A stretch of DNA of 50,348 nucleotides from the NCBI GenBank assembly GCA_017635515.1, contig JAGBLH010000257.1:1-50348 (forward strand), in the 5' to 3' direction. The notes below the pieces were generated by a model. The model was not told the DNA's origin. It did no database searches and worked only from the letters and a program-made list of their open reading frames with translations. This document shows positions 1,431 through 39,323 of this stretch, piece by piece (the first letter of the stretch is position 1; each line of letters opens with the position of its first letter). The DNA comes from Selenomonas sp. Lineage in GTDB: Bacteria > Bacillota > Negativicutes > Selenomonadales > Selenomonadaceae. Both the position numbers and the translations under genes were made by a program.

Positions 1431-1528
1431 CCTCGCTGATGCATTTTGCTATTTTTCTGTAAGTCGGCATAGATTTCGGCGTGTAACATAAGAAATAGAG
1501 AAGATGTGTCATGAGGTAGGTGGATATA

Positions 1529-3436
1529 ATGAGGCAAGTGTTGCCGAGGCAGCTACTGGGGTGCTTCTTTTTTGTCATGATAGTTCTGCTGTGCATGGGA
1601 CGGGGGTGTTCGGCCCAGACTTGGGCAGGAAATATGGCTCCTGTGATGGGAGATGGTGCGATTGTCACAAGTCACTTTGGGTATCGTGAAGATCCGCAAA
1701 CAGGTGAAGGGAAGTTTCATAAGGGAGTTGATGTATCGGATGGCATAGAAGGTACACCTGTTTACGCTGCTTGTGATGGCATAATTGGTGATGCAGGATT
1801 TTTTGATCCTAACGGATATGGAGCATGGATTGAAATATATACTGAAGATGACCAGTACGGGACTATAATGGTTGGATATGCTCATTGTAGACCTACCCCA
1901 GAGGTTTTAAATGGAAATTGGAGTCTTCGTGTTACAAAAGGACAATATATTGGCAATGCTATTACAATAGGCAAGTCTACAGGCTCTCATGCCCATATTG
2001 AGGTGCGCCAGGGAAACGATCAAGGTAATCCACTTGATCCAGGTATTTTCTTTCCTTCATATGCGGGAGGCAGCGGTGGTGCTGCTATGTCTGGGATTGA
2101 AGTTGCTGTGACTAAGCTGCAATTCGATGTAGCTTATAAATTCGGTGAGCCTCTGCAAGAGTTTTCTGAGACAATTTCCAAGGCTTGTATTTCAGGTTTA
2201 GATAAACTGAAGGATGTCATGGTCTACCTGTTCTTCATCCTCATCACCATAGATCTGATATACGGCGTGTCTATGCTGATGATTGATTCTGAGCAGGGCA
2301 ACAGTCTTTTCAAGTGGCTACTCTCGAAGACACTGATGTATCTGATTCTGCTGTATATCATATCCAACTGGGCCGGTACGGTGGCTAACTTCATGCGAGA
2401 CTTCTATGTGGGGGCTGCCGCTACGGCTACGGGGAGCAGTATCACGGATGCACAGAATGCTGTGGCTAATCCGTTTGACTTGCTGCAGAAGGGGGCAAGC
2501 ATCGTTGCACCTATCGTTCAAAATATAGTAAACCCTGCGGGCATTATCCTCAGTGGGGTGATGTTTTTGGCGATGGTTGTGCTCTTTGGGCTGTGCGCTA
2601 TCATATGTTTCCAGATTTTGATGGCGTATATTGAGTTCTATATGGTGATGATTTTTGGCTTCGTTCTTTTCGTCACTTCGGGTTCCAAGCATGTGCGACA
2701 GTTTGCCGCCAGGGCGTTCAATGCTATGTTCATGGTATGCGCCAAGCTGATGTTCATGGTGTTCTTTTCCATGATGGTTCAGAACGTGATGACGAATTTG
2801 CAGACGGATAATCTTATCAAGCAGCATACTATTACGGTGGCAGCCGGTGGCGAGAAGGAGGTCTTCGATACATTAAAGGGCATGGGGGCTTCGGATGGGC
2901 AGATAGCCGGAATCATGGGCAATATCAAGCAGGAAGATGGGCCTTTCAATCCGGCAGAACAAAATGAGCTTGGCTATACAGGGCTATTCCAGTGGGACCC
3001 CGTTGATAGATGGCCTAGATTTGTCGAGTGGTGCGAAAAACAGTCTCCTCCGCTTAACCCATATAGCAATGCAGTTCAGGTCAGATATGCTGTTACGGAG
3101 GAGTACGGTAATTTGTTGCCAGAGATATCTTCAGATCCGCAGCAGGCCGCAGCAGACTGGCATCGAATTTTTGAGCGTTCCCTTGAAGGTCCAGGAGATG
3201 AAGGATATGATAATAGACTTAAAAATGCACTTGGATATCAAATGAGAATCCATGATGGAATTCTTGAAGGAGCTACCAATGGCATGACTACACGGATGAC
3301 GGTTTCGGTCATGGATTTTGCCCTGCTTTGCAAGATAATTGTCATCCTGCTGGCATTCATGTTCATTGCAGATCGCATCAGCTCAAGCCTCATCAAGGGC
3401 TTTGCTAATGGCGGGTTCAAGTTCGGAAATGATTGA
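1529..3436 (+). CDS. VirB6/TrbL-like T4SS channel protein with M23 peptidase and lysozyme-like domains
   Basis: A 635-residue fusion. Residues 1-30 form a signal peptide. Residues about 40-165 are an M23 (LytM) peptidase with both zinc motifs: HKGVD (His64, Asp68) and SHAHIE (His154, His156). Residues about 210-430 hold several hydrophobic helices of a TrbL/VirB6-type channel. Residues about 455-570 resemble the phage-tail lysozyme family (GASDGQIAGIMGNIKQEDG, GYTGLFQW). A last membrane helix lies near 600. VirB6 proteins form part of the inner-membrane T4SS channel; the hydrolases would open peptidoglycan. ATG 1529 is chosen over an earlier GTG because GAGGTAGG lies eight bases upstream. The next gene follows after 17 bases. 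The hydrolase families are clear; the channel assignment is by topology. Confidence 0.85.
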   Translation: MRQVLPRQLLGCFFFVMIVLLCMGRGCSAQTWAGNMAPVMGDGAIVTSHFGYREDPQTGEGKFHKGVDVSDGIEGTPVYAACDGIIGDAGFFDPNGYGAWIEIYTEDDQYGTIMVGYAHCRPTPEVLNGNWSLRVTKGQYIGNAITIGKSTGSHAHIEVRQGNDQGNPLDPGIFFPSYAGGSGGAAMSGIEVAVTKLQFDVAYKFGEPLQEFSETISKACISGLDKLKDVMVYLFFILITIDLIYGVSMLMIDSEQGNSLFKWLLSKTLMYLILLYIISNWAGTVANFMRDFYVGAAATATGSSITDAQNAVANPFDLLQKGASIVAPIVQNIVNPAGIILSGVMFLAMVVLFGLCAIICFQILMAYIEFYMVMIFGFVLFVTSGSKHVRQFAARAFNAMFMVCAKLMFMVFFSMMVQNVMTNLQTDNLIKQHTITVAAGGEKEVFDTLKGMGASDGQIAGIMGNIKQEDGPFNPAEQNELGYTGLFQWDPVDRWPRFVEWCEKQSPPLNPYSNAVQVRYAVTEEYGNLLPEISSDPQQAAADWHRIFERSLEGPGDEGYDNRLKNALGYQMRIHDGILEGATNGMTTRMTVSVMDFALLCKIIVILLAFMFIADRISSSLIKGFANGGFKFGND

Positions 3437-9138: not shown

Positions 9139-10848
9139 ATGGACATGACAGAGGAAAAGATGGTAGAAGATATTATTGGCTGCATCCGGGCTGCCGGGAT
9201 TGATGTGGTCACGGACAGGAGTGCTATGGACAGCATCCTTGGCGAGTCGCTTGAGGGTGCTTATAGGAGCGAAATGCTTCAGAAGTATGTCATCACATAC
9301 GCAGAGGGGAATCGTGCTCCTGATCTGGCTCCCAGGTCTATTGTGCTGAAGGATGGCAACGGCAAGGAAAAAAATATGTATTCTGTCCAGTTCTACGGGG
9401 ACAGGCCCAAGGATTATGTGCCAAAGTCTGTCAACAAGGCTTACAAGCTGATGGAGCAGTGGCCGGATGGCTCTCTTCATGCATTGTTTGCAGGCACGGA
9501 AACACCTTATCCTATGCAGGAGTGGGACTGGGCCAAGGGGTTCAGCCAGGATGAGATCAAGGGCATGAAGCTGGCTCCACGGTATGGCTGGCACATGGGA
9601 ACAGGTGTTCCTTCTGCTCCGCATCTGATGGGGATAGGGGAGGCAGAGAATCCTGAGATTGGCTATTACAGCAAGGAGTCTTCAGGCCAACCAAAGGGCA
9701 GCAAGCGGGTCTGGGTGGAGGTGAGCTTCGATGCTTCCACGGATTATACTGATGTGGCAAACCGGAATCCTGACAAGAAGGAAAAGGATATCCGTGGGCT
9801 GGTTCCTTTTGGCGGGTACTATATGTTTCAGGAGAGCAATCTGTCCAATTGGGTGGTGGCAAGTTCCATCAGGCTTGACCGTATCATTCCTGAGGAGGAT
9901 CGTCAGCATATCATGGCAGAGGCGGGTTATGACGAGAAATGTATGTGGGCCAAGAGGTGCGCAAGGCCAAGGCTGAAGGCTGCTGCGACCAAAATCCTTC
10001 AGGATATTGGGAAGACTGGCAACCATGAGCTTCTGGAGAAGCTCATCACGGTGAACCGTCATGAGCTGGATATGGAGCTGATGATTGCTGAACGCTCCAA
10101 GGGGGAGGAACCGACTTATGCCAGAGAGGCTTTTGACGGCTTCATCAGGAGCTATGAAGAGGCGAGGGAGCTTACATCAGAGGAATTGATGGCGAAGGCT
10201 GCGGATTTCATGGAAGAGAGGAAGGCTTTCTTCGCAGGGGAGGGCAATCTCAAGGGCAGGAGGCTTACCCAGGCAGAGATTGGGGCCAACCGTGAGGAGA
10301 TTCGGGAGCGTGTGGCTTTGAATTCTGAGTGGCTGGACAGGAAGGCCCATGAGTTCCTGACCACGGGGCAGGGACGGGTGCTGGGGCTTGCACAGGGCAA
10401 TACTATTTATCTTGACCCTGAAAATATCAGGGTGGAAACGCCTATACATGAGTATACGCATATCTGGGACCGCATATGTCAGAAGGAGAATCCCAAGCTC
10501 TGGGAAGAGGGCGTGGCTATCATGAAGAAGATGAAGCTCTGGGAGACTATCAAGAATGCCCCGGAGTATGCTGATATTGCCCATGATGACAATCTCATTG
10601 CCAGCGAGGTGCATTCCCGCCTTTCAGCCCAGGCAGGGAAGGAACTGCTCCTTCAGAACGAACCCAAGACTCTGCGGGATAAGTTCAAGAAGTGGAACAA
10701 GCAGTTCTGGAAGGGCATCCAGAAGTCTTTCGCCAAGGTCACGGGCAAGAGCTATGTGGCCCATCTGGATGCGGAGGATTTCATTCAGGCCCCGGTAGCT
10801 GACCTTATTTTGAAGAGAAAGCTGGTCAAGGCGGCACAGGGACGGTGA
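9139..10848 (+). CDS. polyvalent-type protein with zincin metallopeptidase domain
   Basis: About 570 residues. The zincin signature HEYTHIWD lies at residues 437-444, preceded by DPENIRVETPI, and a Glu-containing helix follows (DDNLIASEVHSRLSAQ), as in zincin domains of polyvalent proteins carried by phages and conjugative elements. The N-terminal 300 residues are unrecognised and contain a Trp/Gly-rich core (GWHMGTGVPSAPHLMGIG, LVPFGGYYMFQES). The C-terminus ends KAAQGR, part of a pattern shared by six neighbouring genes. AGAAAGG precedes ATG 9139; ATG 9145 is an alternative. Such proteins are thought to enter the recipient with the DNA. Role here inferred, not shown. Confidence 0.75.
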   Translation: MDMTEEKMVEDIIGCIRAAGIDVVTDRSAMDSILGESLEGAYRSEMLQKYVITYAEGNRAPDLAPRSIVLKDGNGKEKNMYSVQFYGDRPKDYVPKSVNKAYKLMEQWPDGSLHALFAGTETPYPMQEWDWAKGFSQDEIKGMKLAPRYGWHMGTGVPSAPHLMGIGEAENPEIGYYSKESSGQPKGSKRVWVEVSFDASTDYTDVANRNPDKKEKDIRGLVPFGGYYMFQESNLSNWVVASSIRLDRIIPEEDRQHIMAEAGYDEKCMWAKRCARPRLKAAATKILQDIGKTGNHELLEKLITVNRHELDMELMIAERSKGEEPTYAREAFDGFIRSYEEARELTSEELMAKAADFMEERKAFFAGEGNLKGRRLTQAEIGANREEIRERVALNSEWLDRKAHEFLTTGQGRVLGLAQGNTIYLDPENIRVETPIHEYTHIWDRICQKENPKLWEEGVAIMKKMKLWETIKNAPEYADIAHDDNLIASEVHSRLSAQAGKELLLQNEPKTLRDKFKKWNKQFWKGIQKSFAKVTGKSYVAHLDAEDFIQAPVADLILKRKLVKAAQGR

Positions 10849-10858
10849 GTGTGGGTAT

Positions 10859-10893
10859 GAGAAAGTGGTTCTATTAGAACCACTTTCTCTTTT
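10859..10893 (+). repeat. dispersed palindrome, copy P2, acting as a terminator
   Basis: GAGAAAGTGGTTCTA and TAGAACCACTTTCTC are perfect 15-bp arms around a single T, followed by TTTTC. It lies ten bases after the zincin gene's stop and could terminate its transcript. The outer GAG/CTC pair differs from the outer bases of other copies yet still pairs. Confidence 0.85.
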
Positions 10894-10970
10894 CGGAAGG
10901 GAATATATTTCTGTAATTTGCCCATGCCTTTTTTCTGTAGAATAGAATCATAGGGAAGAAAGGAGTAGCA

Positions 10971-12095
10971 GTGCCTATGAGTGTGAAGGATTATACCACT
11001 ATCATAGATGAGGGGGATGTCGCAACTTATTCCGGTCTTGGCGAACTTCTGAAGCAGGACATACGCAAGAAGGCTGAGATTGAGACTGCCCAGGCTCCGC
11101 AGGTCTACAAGGTTGCTGTGCAGGATGGAGTCGATGATTTATGCGAGGCCATGGATGCCTTCAAGGAAACTGAGCAGGAGACAATAGTATCGCCCCTTAC
11201 ATGGAAGCAGTATGTTTCCAATAATAAGGAAGCTGTTGATAAATCTTTGTCAGATCTGGGCGTTCTGATCGGTTCTGCTGCCGAGAATGCCAAGACGGCG
11301 GTGACGGAACAGGCCGAGAAGGTTTTTGAGCTGACGGAGAAAGCCGTCAAGTCCTTGTCAGAGGCTGCGGGGTATTTCCATAAGGCAAGGGAGGCCTTGA
11401 AGGAAAAGGACAGGGGCGTAAAGGATTCCATGAAACGAATCCAGGAAATCATGGTTGACCTCAATGAGCTGTCCCAGAAGGAGATGCCGGATGAGGCCAA
11501 GGATGCCTTTGCCAAGATGCAGAAGGAGAGCATGGAAATGCTTGAGCATTTCCAGTCGCTGTATGATGCGGCCCACAAGCCTACAGGCAAGATGGTCCCC
11601 GGCAAGGTTGCGGAGATGTTTGATGTGGCAAGCACCAGCCTCAGCAATGTAAGGGATGACCTGAAGGTTTGTTACTGCATGAAGAAGGCAGCAGTGAGGG
11701 AACAGGCTTCGAGCGTGTTCGGATTCATTGCCAAGACTGCCAGCAAGATTACCGGCAAGGCAAAGGACTACATGAAGGCCTTGCGCACTGCCAAGGACAA
11801 GGTTTACAGCAAGGGAAAGGATATCAGCGACAAGCTGCAGCACCTGAAGCCTGTCCTGGTGATCGGCGTGACCGACAGCCGGGATATGCAGATGAGCAAG
11901 TATCTGGTGAATGCTAATCTTACAGGCCCGCCACCAGACAGCCTGGCACAAACAATGGTGAAGGCCATGATGAAGGACGGGCTGGGGAAGAAGGAAATAC
12001 TGGATAATCTGACACGGCTGGGCAAGATTATCAAGGATGCTGCCAGCGACAAGAAGACTCTTGAGATGATTGATGGGAAAGATACTGGAAGGTAA
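10971..12095 (+). CDS. helical polyvalent-cluster protein of unknown function
   Basis: A 374-residue, Lys/Ala/Glu-rich protein that is nearly all alpha-helix. Repeated amphipathic helices run from about residue 75 to 250 (AAENAKTAVTEQAEKVFELT, EAAGYFHKAREALKEKDRG). No catalytic motif or membrane segment is visible. It ends DGKDTGR, sharing the C-terminal Gly-Arg of its neighbours. AAGGAG lies seven bases before the GTG at 10971; ATG 10977 is possible. A short hydrophobic strand LKPVLVIGVTDSR near residue 295 may be a domain core. It may be a scaffold or a DNA-protecting protein delivered during transfer; this is inference. Confidence 0.65.
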   Translation: MPMSVKDYTTIIDEGDVATYSGLGELLKQDIRKKAEIETAQAPQVYKVAVQDGVDDLCEAMDAFKETEQETIVSPLTWKQYVSNNKEAVDKSLSDLGVLIGSAAENAKTAVTEQAEKVFELTEKAVKSLSEAAGYFHKAREALKEKDRGVKDSMKRIQEIMVDLNELSQKEMPDEAKDAFAKMQKESMEMLEHFQSLYDAAHKPTGKMVPGKVAEMFDVASTSLSNVRDDLKVCYCMKKAAVREQASSVFGFIAKTASKITGKAKDYMKALRTAKDKVYSKGKDISDKLQHLKPVLVIGVTDSRDMQMSKYLVNANLTGPPPDSLAQTMVKAMMKDGLGKKEILDNLTRLGKIIKDAASDKKTLEMIDGKDTGR

Positions 12096-12124
12096 TTGTT
12101 TGCGTAAGAAAGGAAGTATTGAAA

Positions 12125-13288
12125 ATGGCCAACGAGAATACTATGGAAAATCGTGTGTTGAGCAATGGAGAGGCAGAGGTTCTGATGGATGTGGCAAGGC
12201 ATATAGAGTCGGATGATTCGGCTTATGACAAGCAGATGTCGATAGATGAAGAGGCATTGGAGAAGTGGGCAAAATCAATGGATAATCCTCAGGAGCCTGA
12301 AAAACCCGCTAAGAAAGTTCTTACTGCTGAGGATAAAGAGGCGTTGGAATACATGCGCAAGGAAGCTGACAAAGACCTGCCGTTGGTTTTAGCTGATGAA
12401 ATGTCCAGAAAAGCAGCAAGGGGAGAAGCTGTCTGGCAGGCCCCCAAGGATGAACGTCCTATCATGCATATGCCTGTAAATCCTCGCACTGGTAATTATT
12501 TCCAGAATGGGAAAGCCCTTGTTCTTATGCAAGCACAGTATGAGATGAAGACTGCTGACAATCGCTGGATTTCTGCCAGAGCTTTAAATGTTCTGCGGAA
12601 GAAAGAGGGAAAGGATATCATCCCCAAAAAAGGAGAGCATGCAATAATTATTCCTTCCGGCGATAAGGATAACCCTCGTTCTGTGGCATATTTCAATTAC
12701 AGTCAGCTTCATGGCAAAGATTTGCCCAAAAGTATTGAAATCATTGACAAGACCAAGGATTCCCTGGGTGAGAAGATGCTGAACTATATGCGTTTCAAGG
12801 CAAACGATGCTAAGGAAAAGGCAGAAGTGACCAAAGAAAATTTCTGGGAATTAGGGCGTAAGGCTAATTACGATGCTATCTGCTATTCTGCGAAGCTTCA
12901 GACAGAACTTGACAAATCAATGTCTGTCTTCAAGGATGCAATGCCTGAATTCGAGAACCGGCTGGCCGCTATCAAGGGGTTTGACCGGAAAGCAGAACCT
13001 AAAAATGAGGAAGATCGCTTCATGCGCAGCATGGCCAATAGCCTGGAGTTTGAGCCTGATAAGAAGAATTATGTCATAAAGGCCGCCGCTTCGGCCCTTA
13101 TCAATCAGGTTCCTGAGAAGACGGTCATCAAGATGATTGACAAGTTCGCCCCGGAGGCTGCCAAGGATGCGGTCAAGATGGAGCAGGGCAAGGGGAAATA
13201 TTCCAAGTTTGTCATGGACACTCTTGGGAAGGACAAGGTGCTCCAGGCAAAGATTGCCGAGGGCAAGAACAAAAGCGCGGCTCGCTGA
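12125..13288 (+). CDS. ArdC-N-like polyvalent protein
   Basis: A 387-residue protein. Residues about 115-185 resemble the ArdC N-terminal ssDNA-binding domain: PVNPRTGNYFQNGKALVLM, a WISARALNVL helix and a KKGEHAIIIPSG turn correspond to the conserved blocks of that fold. ArdC-type domains protect incoming single-stranded plasmid DNA from restriction. The C-terminal half is helical and ends KNKSAAR. AAGGAAG lies nine bases before the ATG at 12125. The following coding segment lies in the +1 frame and overlaps or abuts this end, so the gene may once have continued into it, or a frameshift may join them. Confidence 0.7.
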   Translation: MANENTMENRVLSNGEAEVLMDVARHIESDDSAYDKQMSIDEEALEKWAKSMDNPQEPEKPAKKVLTAEDKEALEYMRKEADKDLPLVLADEMSRKAARGEAVWQAPKDERPIMHMPVNPRTGNYFQNGKALVLMQAQYEMKTADNRWISARALNVLRKKEGKDIIPKKGEHAIIIPSGDKDNPRSVAYFNYSQLHGKDLPKSIEIIDKTKDSLGEKMLNYMRFKANDAKEKAEVTKENFWELGRKANYDAICYSAKLQTELDKSMSVFKDAMPEFENRLAAIKGFDRKAEPKNEEDRFMRSMANSLEFEPDKKNYVIKAAASALINQVPEKTVIKMIDKFAPEAAKDAVKMEQGKGKYSKFVMDTLGKDKVLQAKIAEGKNKSAAR

Positions 13289-13919
13289 GACGAGCAACGC
13301 TGAGGCTGAAAAGGCTGGCGTAAATAAGGATGAGGCGTGGCATAAGGCGTTTGATTATGTGCAAAATAACCCTATGGTGATGCCCGAAGATGATTTCAAA
13401 AGAAAGGGATATTACTTCGAGATTAATAATGATACAGCTGTATTCAGCGAGAGAGTCCTGCGTGTGACCAGGGTGGAAAATCATCCTAAGTACGGCGATC
13501 AGTGCCATAATGAGTTCTTTTCTCCGCATTTCCTGAAGCTTGACTTGTCTCTCAAGGGTGATAAGGCTATGCTTACGGGGCCTTTCGGGGAACAGGCTGT
13601 GACTATCAAGGAATGTGATGATGATTTTCTGGTTCAGCGGCGCAAGGGCAGCATGACTATCAATATCAAGGGAGGCAAGAAAGGGTTCAGGGAATGGATG
13701 ATGAACCCTGACAAGCACAGCATTGAGATTGGCTATGTCAAGCATCATGTCGAGGATATAGCACAGCAGAAGAAAATGGTTCCACCGGAGTATGACAGCC
13801 ATCAGGAGATAGCAAAGCTGAAGGCAAGGCCGGATTTTGAGTATGGCAAGGATTACAGCTATCTGTATTCCGATATGGCACTGCCTATGTTTGAGAAGAG
13901 CAAGGTACAGGGCAGGTAA
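13254..13919 (+). CDS. polyvalent-cluster protein, start uncertain (possible frameshifted continuation)
   Basis: Protein-like sequence in the +1 frame begins at about 13285 (AETSNAEAEKAGVNKDEAWH) and runs to TAA at 13917-13919. No ATG with a ribosome site is found at its beginning: candidates are TTG 13254 inside the upstream gene, GTG 13359 after AAGGCG, and ATG 13374. The beta-rich middle (YYFEINNDTAVFSERVLRVT, GPFGEQAVTIKEC) is unrecognised. It ends KSKVQGR, the Arg terminus shared by its neighbours. Either translation is coupled to the upstream gene, or a shift in the AAAA run near 13272 fuses the two into one protein of about 600 residues. Confidence 0.55.
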   Translation: MPRARTKARLAETSNAEAEKAGVNKDEAWHKAFDYVQNNPMVMPEDDFKRKGYYFEINNDTAVFSERVLRVTRVENHPKYGDQCHNEFFSPHFLKLDLSLKGDKAMLTGPFGEQAVTIKECDDDFLVQRRKGSMTINIKGGKKGFREWMMNPDKHSIEIGYVKHHVEDIAQQKKMVPPEYDSHQEIAKLKARPDFEYGKDYSYLYSDMALPMFEKSKVQGR

Positions 13920-13941
13920 AAATATAAGAAAGGTGGTGCAT

Positions 13942-13974
13942 ATGGCGGTACTCCTGCGGGGGTATCGCCATTAG
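13942..13974 (+). promoter_or_regulatory. hairpin with a 10-codon leader frame before the 309-aa gene
   Basis: AGAAAGGTGG (13928-13937) is followed five bases later by ATG and a short frame MAVLLRGYRH ending at TAG 13972-13974. The same bases form a hairpin: ATGGCGGTA (13942-13950) with TATCGCCAT (13963-13971), one G-T pair. The main ATG is at 13979, too far from the ribosome site unless the hairpin folds, which would shorten the gap to about 11 bases. It may be a leader peptide or a structure that sets translation. Confidence 0.5.
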
Positions 13975-13978
13975 GATT

Positions 13979-14908
13979 ATGGAAGATAAAGATGATGAAT
14001 TTATGGATTTAGTCAGGAAAAATTTTCAGGAGCGGTTTGAACTGAAGGAGATACTGAAGGAATTTGATGCCAATGGCATATTTGCCAGCGGTAATCATTG
14101 GTTCATTACACGGGGAGGGTATGATTTAGACTGGGAATTGCAACATGACGGAGAACCCGTAATCCAGTGCATTGCTGGCAAATTGGAAAATGTTTCTCTT
14201 TCGGCTGAAAACTTTGACCGTATTGGTAGTGTCATCAAAGAAGTGTATAATGATGTTCACTTCGACAAAATCATTTCTCAGGAAAGTGAAGCCGTAGAAT
14301 TTGATCCTGTTGTTGACTGGCGGGGATTTACGGAGCAGGATTTCGAGAATCTGCAAGCTGACAGGATGTATGACCCAAACTATGAGTACAACCATGAATT
14401 TTACGCAGGAGATGTAAAGCTTGCCATTGAGGGTTCAGTGAGATATGGTGAAAAATTTATCAACCTTTATGCGTTAGAAAATGGTGGTACTCCAGAAGCT
14501 AGTTTCCATAATTTTTACAACAGCATAGGCTTGCATATGCCTGAAGTCAAGAAGATGACTTATGAGGAATTTCAGGACAAGATTGAGTCGCATTTGAGGG
14601 AGGCTATACGGAACGACAATCGTAGAATGCTTCCTAAAGAGAAAATATTTTTAGCAGAAAATCTTGCAAAGCCTTCTCCCAAAAGCTGGGCATATGCCCA
14701 TCTTTATGAGCTGACGGCGCTATCCAAGGAGCTTATCCGTGAGGATGGAAAAAGCCTCTCGGATATTGAGAAAAAATGGGTAAAGCCGAACAGCAGGAAG
14801 GTGAAGCTCCTTCATGGGGGCAGCAAAAATCTGATGAATAAATTGAAAAAGGAATTGGAGAAGGATAAGGAAATCAAGAAAATCTTGTCCGCTCAAAAAG
14901 GCAGGTAA
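13979..14908 (+). CDS. polyvalent-cluster protein of unknown function (309 aa)
   Basis: A 309-residue protein. Residues about 20-170 are beta-rich and contain many aromatic residues (NHWFITRGGYDLDWELQHDG, VVDWRGFTEQDF); residues about 185-309 are helical and basic. A similar N-terminal plan, sensing-like beta domain then helices, occurs in unclassified proteins of conjugative elements, but I recognise no named family. It ends ILSAQKGR, again Gly-Arg. Only AGG lies close to its ATG, so translation may depend on the upstream hairpin. The next gene starts 16 bases after its stop and shares the operon. Confidence 0.65.
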   Translation: MEDKDDEFMDLVRKNFQERFELKEILKEFDANGIFASGNHWFITRGGYDLDWELQHDGEPVIQCIAGKLENVSLSAENFDRIGSVIKEVYNDVHFDKIISQESEAVEFDPVVDWRGFTEQDFENLQADRMYDPNYEYNHEFYAGDVKLAIEGSVRYGEKFINLYALENGGTPEASFHNFYNSIGLHMPEVKKMTYEEFQDKIESHLREAIRNDNRRMLPKEKIFLAENLAKPSPKSWAYAHLYELTALSKELIREDGKSLSDIEKKWVKPNSRKVKLLHGGSKNLMNKLKKELEKDKEIKKILSAQKGR

Positions 14909-14924
14909 AGAAGGAGGCGGGAAA

Positions 14925-17900
14925 ATGGCCACAGATATTGATCAAGCGTTGTTTGAGGATGAGTTGTCACCCGGTTACAATTCTTTTAATGAGGCTCTGG
15001 CAAATGCCGTGGCTGCTGCCATGCGCAAGAGGCGGGAAGAGGGCAGGGCTAAGACGGAGCCTCCCAAGGATGGCGGGGGTGACGAGGGCACAGAAGAAAA
15101 AGCGGAGGAAGCATCTGCTTCGGAGGAGGTGGCAGAGGCAGCCCAGGAATCTCCCGAACAAGGTGAGCTGGGGCTTGATGATGGCGAAACTGTAGAGGGC
15201 GAGGTCGAAAGCGAGGAGAAGGAGGAGGCAAAGAAGGATTCCGGCAAGATTGAGGATTTTGGTGAGAAGCTTGGCGGGGCCAGGAAAGACCTGTATCAGA
15301 GATATCGTGAGATGTTCCTCAAGGTGACTGAAGATGAGCTGTCTAAGTATCCGCTGGCGAAGCTCTGGCCTCAGCCTAACTATAAAAAGCTTCTGGATGA
15401 AGGGGTGGAGCCTTGGCGTGTGGTGATGCTCAGGGTCCTGCGGGAAGATCTGGGGAAACGGCCTCCCACATCGTCTTATAAAGTACACAGGTGGAACCGA
15501 AAGTTCCTCTATAACCGTTCTGTTGCAGAGGAAGTGCTGGATGTAGAGAATAATGCCAATGAATTCGCTGATTACATGGGCTTTTATAACTCCAATTTTT
15601 CTGATGCTACGATCTGCAAAGCTTATATGTATTTAGAGCTGGGGGCTGATACATCTGAAAAAGAATTTCCGTACACGTTCAGGTATTTCAGCGAATTAGA
15701 AAGAGCTTATATCAACGGAGAGCCTTATTCAGGCTGCTATATCTTGATGGAACATGTATGGAAACCTGTGGAAGCATTCAATACCCATGCCGAGGCTCAA
15801 GAAGCCATGATAGCTGCGAATATGAGCATCATCGAAGAAAAAAGAAGATTCATGGAAGAAGCTCTGAGACAAATTGCGGGAGAGCAAGGCAAGGATGCAG
15901 CAACAGGAGAGGTTAAACGAAAGTACGACAAGTTTTCGGTTCTTGGCTGGCAGGGGGCTAAGGGGTACTGGTTCATTGGCAAGAAATACAACGGAGAGTG
16001 GTTGGAAGTCAAGAAGCCTTTTGAAGATGCAAAGGCTGCCAGGGAATATCTGGAAAGTCACAAGGATGAAATCCAAGACTTATTCGAGCAGTTCAAGTTT
16101 GTGCCCAGTCTTAGAAGAACGGAGAATCTGCCCAGGACGGAAACTGGCAATCCTGCCCGCATGAAGGATATCACTCCTGAGGAATTTTCTGAGGCCTTCG
16201 GCTTCCGGGGGGTTGAATTCGGCAACTGGGTGGAGGATAAAAAAAGGCAACAGGATTTGAACGAGGCCTATGACGGGCTGATGGATCTGGCAGGTGTGCT
16301 GAATGTTCCTCCCAAGGCATTGTCCCTTTGCGGGGAACTGGGGCTTCGGTTTGGCTCCAATGGCAGAGGCGGCAAGAATGCTGCCAAGGCTCATTATGAG
16401 CCTGACCTTATTGCTATCAATCTTACCAAGAAGGCGGGGGCAGGGTCGCTGGCCCATGAGTGGTTCCATGCTATGGATCATTATTTCAATCGGCATGTGG
16501 GGCAGAATGAAAATTCTTTTCTTTTGCTCACAGAAACTAGGGATATAGAAAGGCTGAAAAGCAATGAAGCTACAATGCAGACCGTCTTAGAGAACAATAA
16601 AGATCGTCCGGACCGCCAGGAATTTATTCAGAACAGGTATGATCATTACAATAGTTTTCGCAACGGAATATATGAAAACAGTGAAATCCGTAGAGAAGTG
16701 CTGGATAAGTTTGTCGGGCTGCTGAGTGCTTTCGAGAAGGAAACGCCTGATGTCAGCAAGACATATCTCAAGCGCAGCGAAGGTATGGACAGGTATCACA
16801 GCAAGCCTTACTGGAGCAAGAAGGTTGAGATGGCTGCCCGTGCCTTTGAGGCTTATGTCTATACGAAGCTGGAAGAGAAGGGGATTCGGAACGATTATCT
16901 GGTGAATTACCTCACCCCCAAGGAGTATGATGAAGTATCAGCCAAGAATCCTGCACGGCTTTCCGGCAAGTATCCTTATCCTGTGCCAGAGGAGATGCCC
17001 GTCATCAAGAAAGCTTATGATGACCTTTTCGAGACCATTGAAACCAGAGAGGCTGAAGATGGCAAAGTGGAATTGTACTCTTCCTCGGATTACAGGCGTT
17101 CCCGCCTGGAGCAGTGCGAGACGGTCTTCGATGAGGAGCTTTCTGAGGCGCAGCTGGATCTTAAAGCTTTTGCAAGCGCAGTGCTTGAGCAGGATGTGGA
17201 ATTCTTTGAGGGGCCTGAGACTTTCCATGGTTCCTATGATCCGCTGGAGAACAAGATACTGCTGAACATTAACAGCGAGAAGCCGATGGACTGGGTGCTG
17301 TGGCATGAGTGCTTCCATGCCTTCGGAGCACTGGAGCCGGAGACTTACAAGGAACTGACGGATTATATGGATGCCAATGCGCCCATCACCAGGGAACAGA
17401 TTGAGGCGTACAAGGAGTCGGTCAAGGGCTATGACCTGCCGGACAACGTGGTGAAGCAGGAACTCATGGCTGATGCCTTTGCTGATATGAAGAAACGGCA
17501 AGCCACCATGGAACAGATGAAGGACAAGGCTCCTGGCCTTTTCGGCAGGGTGTCTGGATACTTCTCCCGTGTGAAGGACAAGGCCAAGGAGTTCTTCTTT
17601 GGGAAAGAGGATGTGAAACTGACAAAGAAGCAGTTCGAGGTGTTCGAGCAGGGTATCAAGGATATTGAGAAGCTGCGTGTGAAGGCTGATCAGAGATTCA
17701 TTGATGATTATTTCCCTGAGCGCAATGGCTATGATGAAGAGATTGAGCGAGACCTGAGGGAGAGGGATATTTACTTCGAATCCCATTCGTCCAAGGCCGT
17801 TGCTCCGCATACGAACCCTATATTAGAAGGAAGGAATGCTGCTTCCCTGGAAACTGTGATGAAAGTGGCCCAACGGTGCGAGGACAGAAACCGCAATCGT

Positions 17901-18134
17901 TTGGAGGGGGCGTATGGCAATGAGAAGCAGGGAGTACAGAAGAGGCTGAAGATAATAGACTTCACGCCCTTACAGCAGAAGGATTTCGATGTCCAGTTTG
18001 CCAAGGATGCTATCCGGGATGGCGCAAGGCCCAGGGATGTGGAGTATGTGCTGAAGAAGGCCAGTCCTTTGGGGCAGAGCAAGCGGGCTGTGTCTGAGAT
18101 CATGCGTGAAGCCAAGGCAATCTATGCCAGATAG
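14925..18134 (+). CDS. large polyvalent protein with LPD1-type and two zincin motifs
   Basis: A 1069-residue multidomain protein. Residues 40-105 are an acidic linker. Residues about 325-385 resemble an LPD-type beta domain (LGWQGAKGYWFIGKKYNGEW). Residues about 415-520 match LPD1: FGFRGVEFGNWVEDKKRQQ through AHYEPDLIAINLTKKAGAGS, ending in a zincin-like helix HEWFH (511-515). A second zincin motif, LWHECFHAF, has HECFH at 794-798 and a following QELMADAFADM. The C-terminal 250 residues are helical and charged, ending AKAIYAR. GGAGG precedes ATG 14925. Polyvalent proteins of this kind are carried into recipients by conjugative elements and phages; the substrates of the peptidases are unknown. 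Confidence 0.85.
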   Translation: MATDIDQALFEDELSPGYNSFNEALANAVAAAMRKRREEGRAKTEPPKDGGGDEGTEEKAEEASASEEVAEAAQESPEQGELGLDDGETVEGEVESEEKEEAKKDSGKIEDFGEKLGGARKDLYQRYREMFLKVTEDELSKYPLAKLWPQPNYKKLLDEGVEPWRVVMLRVLREDLGKRPPTSSYKVHRWNRKFLYNRSVAEEVLDVENNANEFADYMGFYNSNFSDATICKAYMYLELGADTSEKEFPYTFRYFSELERAYINGEPYSGCYILMEHVWKPVEAFNTHAEAQEAMIAANMSIIEEKRRFMEEALRQIAGEQGKDAATGEVKRKYDKFSVLGWQGAKGYWFIGKKYNGEWLEVKKPFEDAKAAREYLESHKDEIQDLFEQFKFVPSLRRTENLPRTETGNPARMKDITPEEFSEAFGFRGVEFGNWVEDKKRQQDLNEAYDGLMDLAGVLNVPPKALSLCGELGLRFGSNGRGGKNAAKAHYEPDLIAINLTKKAGAGSLAHEWFHAMDHYFNRHVGQNENSFLLLTETRDIERLKSNEATMQTVLENNKDRPDRQEFIQNRYDHYNSFRNGIYENSEIRREVLDKFVGLLSAFEKETPDVSKTYLKRSEGMDRYHSKPYWSKKVEMAARAFEAYVYTKLEEKGIRNDYLVNYLTPKEYDEVSAKNPARLSGKYPYPVPEEMPVIKKAYDDLFETIETREAEDGKVELYSSSDYRRSRLEQCETVFDEELSEAQLDLKAFASAVLEQDVEFFEGPETFHGSYDPLENKILLNINSEKPMDWVLWHECFHAFGALEPETYKELTDYMDANAPITREQIEAYKESVKGYDLPDNVVKQELMADAFADMKKRQATMEQMKDKAPGLFGRVSGYFSRVKDKAKEFFFGKEDVKLTKKQFEVFEQGIKDIEKLRVKADQRFIDDYFPERNGYDEEIERDLRERDIYFESHSSKAVAPHTNPILEGRNAASLETVMKVAQRCEDRNRNRLEGAYGNEKQGVQKRLKIIDFTPLQQKDFDVQFAKDAIRDGARPRDVEYVLKKASPLGQSKRAVSEIMREAKAIYAR

Positions 18135-21215: not shown

Positions 21216-22442
21216 ATGAATCAGACAGCACTCAAGAAAAGATATGGCCTCACAACCAAGCAGTTCACGGATGTTTTGCAGAACAATCTTCCTGAGTTGA
21301 ACAAGGATGGCGAACACGCCGTCCTGGATGGAAACCACTGGATCTTGGATGAAGTTGGCGTATCTCGGTTGGATGAAATGCTTCATTATGTGCCAGACCT
21401 GCCTATCCAGTCAACTGACACCAGCAAGAATGCTCTCAAGGCAGAGAATGAGGAACTGAAGAGCAAGGTTGAAGAGCTTCAGGAATACCTCATTAAAGCT
21501 GAGGCTACATTGGATGAGACCTTAAAGAAGCATAAGTCTGAGAAAAAAGACTATGAGAACCAACTGGAGGAACTTACCAAGCAGATCTACGCTACCCAGG
21601 AAGGGCAGAAGAACCTCAGCGATAATCTTATCCGCAAGTACAAAAATGATGCAGAGAAGGCAAATGCTTCGCTGGAATATGAGAGAGCAAAGAGCAAGGA
21701 TAAGATTGAATCCCAGGCCAAAATGATTGAAGAACTTCAGTCTAGGGAAAAGGATTACATCGAAAAGCTGAAAAAATACCTGGAGCTTCGCAATGAGCAT
21801 CTCAGACTTCAGAATGAAATAACTGTCAGCAGTGAAGAACAGCAGAAACTTCTGAGACAGCTGGGTGAAAAGAATGAGTATGTTTCCCAGATCGAAGATG
21901 TGCTCAACAATGCAAAAGCTACAAACAAAGATTACTCCATGGCAAATACCCTGCTCATAAAGGATATCAACACTGCCATGACGGAAATCCTCAATGTAAT
22001 CACTAACTTACAGAACTCCGTGGACAATCACGCTATTTCTTCTGAAGCCAAGAAAGCCCTGGTCAATGAAATCGAAAAAGTTAGCAATCGTCAGCGCAGG
22101 ATGATGGGCTATGAGGAAGAGACTCCGCAGGAGACTCCGGCTGAAGAAGCAGAAGATACAACGGCAACGGAAGCAAAGGAGAATACGGAGGAGGCACAGG
22201 AAGGCGCTCAGGCCGAAAAAATTCCTGAGGAAAATGTGCTTGATGGTGCAGTGGTTATTCCCTTGAACGAAAAAAGAAAAGCTAAAGGAGAAGCAAAGCT
22301 TCTGGCAGATAACGAATCGCTTGATACCGCCATTGCTGTACTCAGGGAAAGCCAGGATAAGCAGTGGGAAGAAGTCAAGACTGAAAACGAGAATAAAAAG
22401 AAGGGCCTTCTCGCCAGGGTGGCTTCCTGGTTCATTGCATGA
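21216..22442 (+). CDS. long coiled-coil protein with N-terminal DNA-binding-like domain and C-terminal amphipathic helix
   Basis: A 408-residue protein. Residues 1-60 look like a small helix-turn-helix or wing domain (LKKRYGLTTKQFTDVLQNN, LDEVGVSRLDEM). Residues about 75-300 are an uninterrupted coiled coil. Residues 305-345 are Glu/Ala/Thr-rich. The last 15 residues (KKKGLLARVASWFIA) form a basic amphipathic helix likely to touch the membrane. KfrA-like plasmid proteins share an N-terminal DNA-binding domain followed by a coiled coil. It lies 67 bases after the ParR-like gene and its stop overlaps the next start (ATGA), so it may link plasmid, membrane and ATPase. Confidence 0.7.
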   Translation: MNQTALKKRYGLTTKQFTDVLQNNLPELNKDGEHAVLDGNHWILDEVGVSRLDEMLHYVPDLPIQSTDTSKNALKAENEELKSKVEELQEYLIKAEATLDETLKKHKSEKKDYENQLEELTKQIYATQEGQKNLSDNLIRKYKNDAEKANASLEYERAKSKDKIESQAKMIEELQSREKDYIEKLKKYLELRNEHLRLQNEITVSSEEQQKLLRQLGEKNEYVSQIEDVLNNAKATNKDYSMANTLLIKDINTAMTEILNVITNLQNSVDNHAISSEAKKALVNEIEKVSNRQRRMMGYEEETPQETPAEEAEDTTATEAKENTEEAQEGAQAEKIPEENVLDGAVVIPLNEKRKAKGEAKLLADNESLDTAIAVLRESQDKQWEEVKTENENKKKGLLARVASWFIA

Positions 22443-23536
22443 TCGCCCAGTATGAGCTGTTCCTTCTCTGCCAACGTGCCGTGATGGAGAATGCTTCGGA
22501 TATCCATCTGAAACCAGGCTCCAAGCCATTTTGTCGGGATCGGAACGGAGAACTTCGCCCCTTGGCTCCTAGTGCGGAGGTTATCAGCGAAGAGACAGTC
22601 AGAGGCCTATGCTATCAGCTCTATGGTGCAGACATCAGTGAAAGTGGTTCTAATAGCACCACTTTCACTGATATGGAGGCGGTGCCGCAGTCCATACGCT
22701 CACTGATTGCTTCAGGATATGGGGAAGCTGATGCCAGTGCATCCATATCATTGCTTGATGGCACAACGGCTAATCTGCGCATAAACGCATTTTACAGCCA
22801 GATGGGACTCAGTTTGGCTATCAGAGTTCTTCATAGCAATATCATGTCAGCCAGGGATATTTGGTTGCCCAATTCCTTGTGGCCGCTGATACGGAAGAAG
22901 GAAGGGATTATCATCTTCTGTGGGGCTACTGGCAGCGGAAAGACAACTGCCATGTATGCCCTGCTGGATATGATCAATCATGAAGCCAGCAAGCACATCA
23001 TTACCTTGGATGAACCCTTGGAGATTGTCCTGAAAGAGGACAAGTGCATTGTTTCCCAACGGGAAGTGGGCATACACTCTGAGTCATTCTCCCAGGCATT
23101 GCGGGCTGCCCTGCGTGAAGATCCAGACATCCTGCTGGTAGGCGAAATGCGAGACAGGGATACTATACGGACAGCCTTGCAAGCAGCAGAAACAGGCCAT
23201 CTTGTATTGTCTACCATACATGCCTCTTCTGTCAGCGAGGTGGTTGACCGCATTGTTTCTTATTTTGATGCCGAGGAAGCAGTCCAATTGAGAAATGCTC
23301 TGGCAGCATCGTTTTTGGGCATTGTAGCTTGCAAGCTTCTGCCACGCAAGGGAGGAGGGAAGGTCAGTGCATTTGAGGTCCTGCTGCGAACTGTAGCAAC
23401 AACGGCTGTGATCAAGAACGGCAACATGATGCAGATAGCTGATTATATGTCTTCTGAGCATGGCATGCAGACGATGGAGAGGTCTATTGAATCGCTTCGG
23501 GCCATCAATGTTTTAGAGGATGACAGCCATGGCTAA
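22439..23536 (+). CDS. PilT/DotB-type secretion ATPase
   Basis: A 365-residue GspE/PilT-superfamily ATPase. Motifs in order: ASDIHLKPGSKP (19-30), Walker A GATGSGKT (162-169), an Asp-box equivalent TLDEPLE (189-195, acidic pair order DE rather than the usual ED), Walker B ILLVGEMRD (231-239) and His box HLVLSTIHA (254-262). Hexameric members power pilus retraction or, as DotB/TraJ, type IVB secretion. It starts by an ATGA overlap with the coiled-coil gene. Residues 66-78 (ISESGSNSTTFTD) are encoded by a dispersed palindrome inserted in frame between the N-terminal and ATPase domains, a position that probably tolerates a loop. Confidence 0.88.
   Translation: MIAQYELFLLCQRAVMENASDIHLKPGSKPFCRDRNGELRPLAPSAEVISEETVRGLCYQLYGADISESGSNSTTFTDMEAVPQSIRSLIASGYGEADASASISLLDGTTANLRINAFYSQMGLSLAIRVLHSNIMSARDIWLPNSLWPLIRKKEGIIIFCGATGSGKTTAMYALLDMINHEASKHIITLDEPLEIVLKEDKCIVSQREVGIHSESFSQALRAALREDPDILLVGEMRDRDTIRTALQAAETGHLVLSTIHASSVSEVVDRIVSYFDAEEAVQLRNALAASFLGIVACKLLPRKGGGKVSAFEVLLRTVATTAVIKNGNMMQIADYMSSEHGMQTMERSIESLRAINVLEDDSHG
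22636..22670. repeat. dispersed palindrome, copy P3, inside a coding sequence
   Basis: Arms CAGTGAAAGTGGTTCTA and TAGCACCACTTTCACTG flank one A, 17 bp each with a single mismatch, making this the longest copy. It lies inside the ATPase gene and keeps the frame open. The four other copies are intergenic, or begin at a stop codon. Confidence 0.85.
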
Positions 23537-27274: not shown

Positions 27275-30247
27275 TTACAATAGTCGCTTGAACGCTTTTT
27301 CCTGTTCTTCTTCTTGTTCGAATACGCTCATGAGCTTCCAATTCTTGGCGGTGTCATCGCTCTTCATGGAAACAATGTTCTTTGCCATGGCGTTTCCGTT
27401 GATGGCAGCCGTGATGATGGTGGGCCTGTCCAGATTTGAAAATTGGGGGGTGATGGGGGGCAGGTTTGCTATGCCACCACCAGAACTGCCTCCGCTTTTG
27501 GCTACTGTGTAGCGGGTGGTCGCTCTCTCTTTGTCCATTGCTTCTTTGATGCCGTTAAGATTCTTGCCAGCCTCCATATACTTTTGATGGGCAAGCTGTG
27601 TACGCTTCTTGGCTGTTTCATAGATTCTTGCCTGAGGGAGATTCTTTCTGAGGATTCCTGCGGTGATCTCTTTGATTTTTTCTGGCGCGCCGGGAGCTTC
27701 GCACTTGGCTCTAAGCTCTGCCTCTTTTTTGTTTAGGCTGCTTTCTTTGCTTTCTAATGTGCTGCGAGTGGATTCGATTTCTTTTTTTAGACGATGGCAT
27801 TCATCGGAAAGGGCAAGATGTTCTTCTGTTCCAGGCTGGAATTTTCCTAATCTGTGCTCGGCTCCTGCCAGCTTGCCTATTTGAGCCTGAAGCTTCTCCT
27901 GCTCTTTTTTCAATGCCCTTCGCTCGGAACGTAGGACTTTGTATTCTCCCTTGACGAAAACATCCTCAGCCATTTTCGTGGCTCGTTCAGGAGAGATGTA
28001 TTTCTTGGCAGCTTCTTCTTCTTCTTCTCTTGCTTTCTGGTATTCGTTCTTGGCAGCGTAGTATCTTTTCCTCATTATGTTGTAAAGGTCACGGAGGGTA
28101 TAGCTTTCCTGATTGTTGATCAGGTCTTCGCCGCTGTCTAAGGCTTGGGTGAGTGAAAGCATGGAGGTTCGCAGGCGTTTGAGAGATTTCTTTAGTTCAA
28201 TGCGGCTGTTCTTATCTTCCTCCAAAAGGTTATGGACATATTTTTGTCTCCGCTCTTTCAGTTCTGGCTGAGTCAGCTTTTTGTCAAGGAGCTGTATGGC
28301 TGGCTCCATATGTTCCTTCAGATGTTCCATTGCTTCGATTTTGGTTTGGATGGGGGAAAGGAGCTTCAGGTAATCAGGTGTGCTCTCATCTGGATCTATG
28401 CTGGCATAGAATTCTTTCCAATGCTCGATTTCATCTGTGAGTGCAAGATATTTCTGATACTGTTCTTTCTCGTCCTCTTCCAGAAATGCAAGCTTGCCTT
28501 CGGTCACGGCATCGTCTACCCATAAGACTGTTTTCTCATCTATCTTCATTTGCTTCAGAGCATCGAGAAAGTCATTCTTCAATTCTGCCATAAATTCATC
28601 GCTGTCTTCATCTTCTTCGATTTCTTCAAAGTCATTTCGCCGCATAAGCTCGTCAGCCAGATCCCTTAGTTCGTCAATCTCTTTTTTCAGTTCAAGTTCA
28701 TTGATTTCTTTCCTGATGATTTCTGTTGAGAAAAGCTTGTCTTGGTATTCCCGTTTCTGCTGACGGTATTGCTTGAGAGCTTTATAGGCTTGGCTCTCTG
28801 TTTTCATGCTTCCAATGGGGCCTAATGTCCTCTCAGGAATTCTTTTCAGTATATTTGCCATAAATTCATCGCCGTTCATCAGGGCTTCCTCACGCATGGC
28901 TTTTATGGAGCGGTGATCTACTCTGTCAGGCTTGCCGTACTTTTCGAGAATGTCATTTGTGACTTCGGCAAAATCTCTGCGGGCTTCTGATATGAATCTT
29001 TGGGCACTTAACCTGCGTTCGACATGAGCACCGCCTTTTCGTGCTTCTTCTAAAGTTTTAGCATTTCGTTTCGGGTAGAGGAAGTATTTGCTGGCAGGTC
29101 TTTCCTTTTCTTGCTCTGCTTCATCTATTATCCTGGGTGAAAACATCAAGTGTACATGAAGATTATGGGAGCCATCTGACATGGCTCCCACTTTGTCATG
29201 GATTGCAAAGGTATAGTAGTGGTTTGGTATTTCTTTGTCAATATAGTTATGGATGAGTTCAAGGTTTTGCTCCATGGTCAATTCATTCGGCAGGGCAAAC
29301 TGAAATTCAAGATATCGTACATTTTTCTTGCTCTCATATCTGTCAGCTGCTGCGAAAAATCGTTTCGCATCACCTTTTGCCCATTTTGGAAGGCGGTTTT
29401 CTGTATAGATGCATCCTCCCTTTTTCTCGAAGGCGGCTTCACGGTTGATGTACTCTACATGAGAAAAAGCGTGTACCTTGTCTTCTGCTTTCTCTATGTT
29501 GGCTATTATTCTTCCGGCTGTTCCTCTGATGAGTCTTCCTCTTCCGTCACGATTATTCCATCGCACATGGGAATTAAGTTCTGATCTTCTGTGCTCCAGC
29601 AGGTCGAGGAAGTGGTCTTGCAGTAGCATTGCAGGTTTTCCTGATCCAGTATTATCCATACTGCGTTTGGGCAGTGTGCGCAGAGTGGGAGGGGAGAGGG
29701 ATACAGATTGTGATAGGGTGCGTCCTCTCCCATCATGGATAGGAGTGTCATGCTTTTGGGTGGCTCTCCTTTTAATGTATTTACCGCCTCTAAGTCGAAA
29801 TTCTCTTCGCTCATTTTGTTCTTCCTCCATTTTCTTTGCCAGTGTTCTTTTTGATTCCTCATCCAGGGTTATGTCAATATTGAATTTCAGGATGCTGTCC
29901 AGTGCCTTTTCTTTGAAGGCATTGCTCCCACGGAGTATGACTGTCTCGTTCTTATAGGTTTCTGCTGCTATTGTGAGAGCAATAGCTATGGTGGCTTCTG
30001 ATGAATCACCTGAGATCTTCAATCCATGTGGCGTATTTGTGATTTGCCCATAAGCACTATCATAAAGGAGCAGTGGCTCTCCATCCAGAAGGTCCTTGCC
30101 ATTGGCAAAGGAAATGAAGTTGTTGGGGGGCTTGTCCTGATTTTGATATTTTCCTTTCCTCTCGATGTATTCCAGGTGCTCCACGCAGGAAACTTTGGTT
30201 TTGTCTGGTTTTTTGTCTTTGTGGACAGAGAAATGATACATTGCCAT
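27275..30247 (-). CDS. MobA/MobL-family relaxase with long coiled-coil C-terminus
   Basis: A 990-residue relaxase. The MobA/MobL core lies at about residues 280-380: SHVEYINREAAFEKKGG, LPKWAKGDAKRFFAAADRYE, RYLEFQFALPNELT and the metal-binding histidines in HNLHVHLMFSPR near residue 365. A transesterase Tyr would lie near the core start. Unusually, the protein also begins with a similar motif pair (MAMYHFSVHKDKK, CVEHLEYIERKGKY), so a partial domain copy or a ~250-residue insertion precedes the core. Residues 480-900 are coiled coil. ATG 30247 is used because GGAG lies eight bases upstream; an earlier start would overlap the previous gene. It nicks oriT and pilots the strand into the recipient. 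Confidence 0.9.
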   Translation of the reverse strand: MAMYHFSVHKDKKPDKTKVSCVEHLEYIERKGKYQNQDKPPNNFISFANGKDLLDGEPLLLYDSAYGQITNTPHGLKISGDSSEATIAIALTIAAETYKNETVILRGSNAFKEKALDSILKFNIDITLDEESKRTLAKKMEEEQNERREFRLRGGKYIKRRATQKHDTPIHDGRGRTLSQSVSLSPPTLRTLPKRSMDNTGSGKPAMLLQDHFLDLLEHRRSELNSHVRWNNRDGRGRLIRGTAGRIIANIEKAEDKVHAFSHVEYINREAAFEKKGGCIYTENRLPKWAKGDAKRFFAAADRYESKKNVRYLEFQFALPNELTMEQNLELIHNYIDKEIPNHYYTFAIHDKVGAMSDGSHNLHVHLMFSPRIIDEAEQEKERPASKYFLYPKRNAKTLEEARKGGAHVERRLSAQRFISEARRDFAEVTNDILEKYGKPDRVDHRSIKAMREEALMNGDEFMANILKRIPERTLGPIGSMKTESQAYKALKQYRQQKREYQDKLFSTEIIRKEINELELKKEIDELRDLADELMRRNDFEEIEEDEDSDEFMAELKNDFLDALKQMKIDEKTVLWVDDAVTEGKLAFLEEDEKEQYQKYLALTDEIEHWKEFYASIDPDESTPDYLKLLSPIQTKIEAMEHLKEHMEPAIQLLDKKLTQPELKERRQKYVHNLLEEDKNSRIELKKSLKRLRTSMLSLTQALDSGEDLINNQESYTLRDLYNIMRKRYYAAKNEYQKAREEEEEAAKKYISPERATKMAEDVFVKGEYKVLRSERRALKKEQEKLQAQIGKLAGAEHRLGKFQPGTEEHLALSDECHRLKKEIESTRSTLESKESSLNKKEAELRAKCEAPGAPEKIKEITAGILRKNLPQARIYETAKKRTQLAHQKYMEAGKNLNGIKEAMDKERATTRYTVAKSGGSSGGGIANLPPITPQFSNLDRPTIITAAINGNAMAKNIVSMKSDDTAKNWKLMSVFEQEEEQEKAFKRLL

Positions 30248-30267
30248 GGTGCCGCTCCAATCATCAC

Positions 30268-30597
30268 TTAATAGCTGGGCTTGAAGTAAGGGACGGTTAT
30301 TTCTTGTACCCTTTTCATGAACCTTTCGTAAAACTTCACGATTTCCCCCGTAGGATGATGGAGGAGCAGACCTTTGCATACTTCGCTGTTTTCTGCAATC
30401 ACTACAGAATATCCCATCAGTCCACGGTATGATACGGGGAAAATATCTAATCCTATGGGTCCTGATTCCATCAGCACCAGTTCCGTCAGGTGCTCACTTA
30501 GTGCATTTTCTACTGATGTACCCTGGGGAGCCAGTTCGATAGATATACCAGCCAGGCTCTCAGGCAGTCCTTTTATGTCTTGGTTGTTGATTATCAT
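30268..30597 (-). CDS. hypothetical protein encoded ahead of the relaxase
   Basis: A 109-residue soluble protein (start MIINNQDIKGLPESLAG) with GAGGAG before its ATG, ending 20 bases before the relaxase start. It could be a relaxosome accessory protein by position, but it has no ribbon-helix-helix motif and is not recognised as MobC. Its central SYRGLMGYSVVIAENSEVCK suggests a small alpha/beta fold. It lies immediately downstream of the candidate oriT. Confidence 0.65.
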   Translation of the reverse strand: MIINNQDIKGLPESLAGISIELAPQGTSVENALSEHLTELVLMESGPIGLDIFPVSYRGLMGYSVVIAENSEVCKGLLLHHPTGEIVKFYERFMKRVQEITVPYFKPSY

Positions 30598-37258: not shown

Positions 37259-37296
37259 AGTTCAGGATTTGCTCCCAATACGGGGGAGGAGTGAAA

Positions 37297-38442: not shown

Positions 38443-38453
38443 GGGATGATTAT

Positions 38454-39323
38454 ATGTCTGAGAAATTTTTGCTGATTCCCCACTTGCGAATCATAAATGC
38501 CCAGGCTGCCAGTACGCCGTACACTGTTGGTTTTCCAGCTATGACTGCCTGGCTGGGGCTTGTCCATGCGCTTGAGCGTTCTATTCGGCAGACTGAGCCA
38601 TTTCATGAGGCAAGGCTGCCACGGGTTGCTGTATCTTGCCACAGCTGTGATTTGCAGGTGTTCAGGGATAAGAACAATCGCTATGGGTCGCTGATTGGCA
38701 TGAAAAAGCCGTTGCGGAAGAAGCAAAACTCAAATGAGTTCCTTCCTGCCCAGTTCATCGAGGAGAGCCGCTGCCATCTGGAGGTCAGCTTGCTGATTGA
38801 GGTGACAGGGCTGGAAAGCGCTGATATCAGGGCTTTCGAGGATGCAGCAAGGAAGGAATTGCCACGGCTGAAGGGAGCAGGTGGGGATATTGTGTTGTCC
38901 TGCCATGAGCTTGACCGCTGGAGGGTTTATGAGATAGCGGAAGATGATATGTCAACTGAGCAGAAACTCAGGAACAAGCTGATGCCTGGGCATGTCATCA
39001 TCGAAAGGCAAGATCTGATGGAGCATGAGGCTGGAACTGACTCTATAGACCGCATGCTTGATGTGATACAGGGGATATGCCCGTCAGATGGCTGGATCGT
39101 TCCGATTGCGGTTGGCTTCCGGGATTTGTCTGGCAGCCTCAAAGTGAAGAACCAGCGGTCATATGACCATGACCACCATTTCGTGGAGCCTCTGGTTACT
39201 ATGGGAGAGTTCATTATTCCATACCGTCTGAAGTCTATCCGGGATATGATGTGGTCATATGAGTATAGAGAAGCAGATGGCCTATATTTGTGCAAGAACA
39301 ATGGCAAGAAGCATTCTGATTGA
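38454..39323 (+). CDS. csy2: type I-F Cascade subunit Csy2 (Cas5f)
   Basis: A 289-residue Csy2. The N-terminus LLIPHLRIINAQAASTPYTV followed by GFPAMTAWLGLVHALER is the family hallmark; the C-terminal half keeps the SYDHDHHFVEPL region. It binds the 5' handle of the crRNA and forms a heterodimer with Csy1. It is a little shorter than Pseudomonas Csy2 (about 330 residues). It starts 11 bases after csy1 with AGGGG as ribosome site and ends 18 bases before csy3. No frameshift or missing region is apparent. Confidence 0.92.
   Translation: MSEKFLLIPHLRIINAQAASTPYTVGFPAMTAWLGLVHALERSIRQTEPFHEARLPRVAVSCHSCDLQVFRDKNNRYGSLIGMKKPLRKKQNSNEFLPAQFIEESRCHLEVSLLIEVTGLESADIRAFEDAARKELPRLKGAGGDIVLSCHELDRWRVYEIAEDDMSTEQKLRNKLMPGHVIIERQDLMEHEAGTDSIDRMLDVIQGICPSDGWIVPIAVGFRDLSGSLKVKNQRSYDHDHHFVEPLVTMGEFIIPYRLKSIRDMMWSYEYREADGLYLCKNNGKKHSD

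Follow-up and report, generated by a model that had tools for sequence, protein, structure and literature searches.

A C-terminal arginine as a probable type IV secretion signal on polyvalent-type proteins of a conjugative-element-like Selenomonas contig

Known C-terminal signals and the Selenomonas cluster

Basic C-terminal signals for type IV secretion systems (T4SS) are of a kind already known. The Agrobacterium VirB/D4 system uses an Arg-rich C-terminal transport signal on VirF and other substrates (Vergunst 2005, reviewed in PMC10025392). Bartonella Beps and VbhT carry a BID domain with a positive tail (PMC5675462), and the effectors of the Xanthomonas X-T4SS carry the XVIPCD module (PMC10025392). 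For T4SS signals as a whole, no common consensus is said to exist, and their prediction is described as difficult (PMC10025392, PMC5675462). Here we describe six consecutive open reading frames (ORFs; p1 to p6) at positions 9139-18134 of contig JAGBLH010000257.1 from a Selenomonas sp. metagenome-assembled genome (GCA_017635515.1); the whole contig of 50,348 nucleotides (nt) is called the window. Arg is the last residue of all six encoded proteins and is preceded by Gly in four. Judging from sequence comparisons, it is probable that the C-termini of these and similar proteins are T4SS translocation signals with Arg as the last residue.

Like the Agrobacterium signal, these tails are C-terminal and basic, Arg matters in them, and they are common to unrelated putative substrates of one T4SS. 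The Arg consensus of Agrobacterium lies inside the C-terminal region, whereas a single Arg at the last position is constant here. Spaced Arg residues of the Agrobacterium type were not found in the last ~20 amino acids (aa); the upstream part is Lys-rich and no single Arg position dominates. The likeness to BID systems is that of a modular C-terminal T4SS signal found on toxins and relaxases alike. In VbhT a relaxase-like signal is attached to a Fic toxin, and CRAfT showed transfer of the protein by a conjugative T4SS (PMC5675462); by analogy VbhT is a validated precedent for toxin-signal modularity. Unlike BID, the tails described here are short and diverse in sequence, and no Pfam match to BID was obtained in the scanned C-terminal regions of the window and of a second contig of the same genome, C247 (maximum E value 5). 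XVIPCD resembles them in being a conserved C-terminal module that delivers a variety of effectors, and differs in being a domain of ~120 residues in an antibacterial T4SS. The polyvalent proteins of phages and conjugative elements (PMC5512222) share the LPD, ArdcN, MPTase, PBECR and YodL domains and the T4SS context; the accessible part of that account describes no terminal-residue signature. In the literature searched, mostly outside subscription journals, no earlier report of a terminal-Arg rule for T4SS substrates was found.

Arginine ends in the window and in related elements

The Arg ends of all six proteins, listed by the first-pass annotation, were confirmed from the sequence (Table 1). 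That annotation also held that no other protein of the window ends in Arg, which is mostly correct; a plausible 92-aa ORF is the exception. Among ORFs of at least 100 aa on 20 further contigs of this genome, terminal Arg occurred in 8 of 178 (4.5%) and Gly-Arg in none of the 178. The chance of six Arg-ended ORFs in a row is ~8e-9, without correction for having picked this residue and this window.

A second case was found on C247, where seven ORFs with differing N-termini have a common C-terminal module of ~60-110 aa. Six of them end in -QGR and one in -GVGK, and an adjacent CHC2/Toprim primase ends in -GAGR. Within the genome, matches to a profile of the 60-aa C247 tail were confined to C247; therefore the tails do not form a single domain that can be aligned. 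The same profile matched two ORFs of genome G266, neither Arg-ended, one of which encodes a MatE-like transporter rather than cargo. A weak RepB_primase_C match in one protein of genome G021 was not reproduced by Pfam in the window or C247 tails. No end overlap joining the window contig to C247 was found, and their GC contents are 0.437 and 0.475, respectively.

The signature was also examined by searches blind to C-termini, made with Pfam profiles. The MPTase-PolyVal profile, covering ArdC-type metallopeptidases, was searched over 220 Negativicutes genomes. Seventeen of the 26 resolvable proteins were Arg-ended, two of these being split genes read through to the second piece; one more was interrupted by a contig end. 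Their tails are diverse (AAVR, QGVR, GRSR, YIR, LSR, EMAR, MER, GMSR, LTR and GGR), and several of the proteins without Arg are short peptidases that stop soon past the catalytic domain. The same-strand neighbors of these genes were Arg-ended in 32 of 58 cases versus the 8/178 baseline (Fisher 2e-16, redundancy not removed). In a blind PBECR/MuF_C search, Arg ended 5/5 proteins in T4SS elements versus 0/9 elsewhere (p = 5e-4), three of the nine being fragments or pseudogenes. Genomes G021, G159 and G282 each have a run of four Arg-ended proteins, namely a relaxase, a PBECR nuclease, a peptidase and a giant protein. Four adjacent polyvalent-type ORFs of G001, a member of the same genus, end in RSR, VVR, AVR and IGR, and their counterparts in G276, from another genus, end in MAR, TTR and AVR. 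Thus Arg ends were found at the C-termini of homologous clusters on related elements, and in non-homologous clusters as well.

Beyond the Negativicutes, the relaxase, LPD7 protein and zincin of the IncU plasmid pRA3 end in DEDER, TENER and EDMER, respectively, and 9 of 12 cargo proteins of Moraxella plasmids are Arg-ended. An IncI Sog-like primase ends in SPGR; transfer of Sog primases in conjugation has been reported (PMC7213743). Phage-borne relatives of p6 are seldom Arg-ended.

The tails also behave as modules. A tail common to unrelated proteins of one element was found in C247, G021, G159, G282 and the Moraxella plasmids. The genes for a Fic protein of Moraxella lincolnii and a zeta toxin of M. 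nonliquefaciens are 94.6% identical over the final 222 nt, and otherwise have only short chance matches. In G276, a coiled-coil protein has 65 C-terminal residues in common with an AbiEii toxin, at 46%. Together with the Arg ends across clusters and their scarcity in phage-borne relatives, these modular tails support the shared translocation tag that the first-pass annotation had proposed.

Two side observations concern such tails. The Fic and zeta toxin genes (L191:11075-12187 and L208:10795-11667) lie on separate Moraxella plasmids, and their near-identical tail amounts to a natural tail swap. At L103:3374-4540, an AbiEii toxin has a C-terminal extension that is also present on the adjacent coiled-coil cargo protein.

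The last residue was compared with the preceding ones in a cargo set made non-redundant at 60%, the window and C247 included. Arg outnumbered Lys 34 to 6 at position -1, as against 78 to 148 at positions -2 to -20 (p = 3e-9). Because Arg is preferred over Lys at -1 only, the signature is more than general basicity.

Proposed role of the tails and alternatives

Terminal Arg thus occurs across unrelated families, mainly in T4SS elements, on tails that are exchanged as modules and with Arg rather than Lys at the end. Translocation itself, the secondary structure of the tails and their binding partner are predicted from these patterns. In the most likely reading, the element's own T4SS carries the six window proteins as cargo. 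The constant part of the signal would be the final Arg with its free carboxylate, and the upstream tail would vary by lineage: a putative amphipathic helix ending in -QGR, a putative basic beta-strand (for example RRVTVRR) and linker ending in -SRGMER, or an Ala-rich tail ending in -AAVR. A VirD4 coupling protein or an adaptor would recognize the end of the tail, the last Arg perhaps being read by the coupling protein, and would bring the protein into the channel together with the DNA or alongside it. The ArdC-like, peptidase, primase, nuclease and toxin domains could thereby act early in the recipient. We give about even odds to a broader rule, in which coupling proteins of several T4SS lineages (Negativicutes, IncU and Moraxella) would read a free C-terminal Arg that marks unrelated cargo sets, including the toxins of toxin-antitoxin systems, and that is exchangeable as a short cassette.

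A number of observations weigh against this interpretation. The relaxase of the window ends in KRLL, and other relaxases end in RDL, WSL and GRGC. Cargo of L156 without terminal Arg ends in LNFLQD and ARKK, and the G276 AbiEii that shares the 65-residue tail ends in Lys (HKK). IncP-like cargo ends in DAGL, ARIG and RHAM, and the cargo of an Alistipes plasmid (L174) has a common tail of its own without Arg (NRLKL, NKLKL, PRIKM), which suggests lineage-specific signals. Since tails differ by lineage (ER, Arg, LKL/IKM, DAGL), tail type may follow the T4SS lineage. Export was not required for R388 ArdC (PMC7213743). When homologs were merged loosely, 12-15 of 30-34 groups were mostly Arg-ended, and the Fisher values above overstate independence, homologs being among the counts. 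The terminal-Arg effect is strong, yet it is not universal.

An alternative is that the tails were inherited by common descent or gene duplication, with an Arg of no special function. The C247 ORFs are indeed paralogs along much of their length, and many of the MPTase ORFs are homologous. However, Arg persists where the remainder of the tail has diverged past alignment, it ends proteins of unrelated families (relaxase, PBECR nuclease, helicase/methylase, Fic, zeta toxin and primase), and phage homologs mostly do without it; we therefore regard descent alone as unlikely. C-terminal residues generally affect recognition of the ClpXP type, and an Arg end might shield the protein from a protease, or steer it to one, in the donor or the recipient. 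Such a stability tag does not account for the association with T4SS elements, for Arg being favored over Lys at -1 or for the Arg on some relaxases, and seems to us quite improbable.

The codons themselves raise another concern. AGA or AGG encodes the terminal Arg in 29 of 45 cargo ORFs (64%) versus 26% internally, as if AGR plus stop were selected as a ribosome-binding or termination context with Arg as a by-product. In the six window genes the Arg codon and stop are CGG-TGA, AGG-TAA (three times), CGC-TGA and AGA-TAG, and in the cargo set as a whole each of the six Arg codons and each of the three stops occurs. Moreover, the visible Shine-Dalgarno sites of the following window genes are located 3' of the stops, and p6, the last gene of the cluster, is Arg-ended with the next ORF ~150 bp away. 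Selection at the nucleotide level is thus very improbable. The first-pass annotation had also considered a recognition site for processing. A peptidase would then cleave at Arg, and the zincin motifs in two of the six proteins might be fitted to this. This can hardly be so, as Arg is the last encoded residue and nothing beyond it is left to remove.

If a translocation signal ending in Arg is correct, the terminal rule together with element context would allow cargo to be listed from sequence, and a short "export" label would help to predict which proteins move with mobile DNA. It would also allow a stringent test of substrate reading by coupling proteins, including any sensing of a free C-terminus, and would add support to the old conjecture that polyvalent proteins are carried along with conjugating DNA.

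Gene content of the window

Table 1. Coordinates of the window ORFs discussed in the text
Feature	Positions	Strand	Length	Remarks	C-terminus
p1	9139..10848	+	569 aa	zincin motif HEYTH	LVKAAQGR
p2	10971..12095	+	374 aa	coiled-coil-like	IDGKDTGR
p3	12119..13288	+	389 aa	weak ArdC N-terminal domain	GKNKSAAR
p4	13254..13919	+	~220 aa	uncertain start, perhaps the TTG at 13254, which would overlap p3	EKSKVQGR
p5	13979..14908	+	309 aa	N-terminal relative in C247	ILSAQKGR
p6	14925..18134	+	1069 aa	LPD5 and LPD1	EAKAIYAR
MobA/MobL relaxase with LPD7	27275..30379	-		no terminal Arg	KAFKRLL
TrbL/VirB6-like T4SS protein	1520..3436	+		M23 and lysozyme domains; T4SS context	
Type II/IV secretion ATPase, VirB11-like	22439..23536	+		T4SS context	
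Small ORF	41015-41293		92 aa	Shine-Dalgarno-like AAGGGAG upstream; between cas genes and CRISPR array	QMACR

Two zincin carriers and one ArdC-like protein had been noted in the cluster, and this agrees with our scans. HEXXH motifs are present in p1 and p6 (two in p6, HEWFH and HECFH, with LPD1 and LPD5 above the Pfam cutoff), and p3 scored 21.6 bits against Pfam ArdcN, just under the cutoff of 22.6. The Pfam scan found no known domain in p2, p4 and p5. A p1 homolog (47%) in G036 lies within an ORF of >3000 aa broken off at the contig end. Homologs of p3 end in EAAR (G160), ATVR (G162), SFSK and GKAL; because they stop at the same place, the C-terminus of p3 is a natural end. A single frameshifted p3/p4 gene was rejected on this ground. 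In G162 a p4 homolog is fused to the p3 homolog. p4 is a real gene with an uncertain start position.

By Pfam, the contig resembles a conjugative element, with a relaxase, VirB6-like and VirB11-like proteins and an actin-like ParM-type protein. LPD, ArdcN and zincin-like domains stand beside the relaxase, VirB6 and VirB11, as in polyvalent proteins. Among plasmids, the cluster had no DNA-level match and p3 none by tblastn; p1, p3 and an ArdC protein of G001 had no match in IMG/VR. A search of genome contigs with p6 gave a single locus, in Mariprofundus. A glutathionylspermidine synthase-like ATP-grasp gene (5140-6471) adjoins the VirB6-like region. Type I-F CRISPR-Cas genes (Csy1 and Csy3 by Pfam) and, after them, an array of 17-18 repeats occupy positions 37291-42437.
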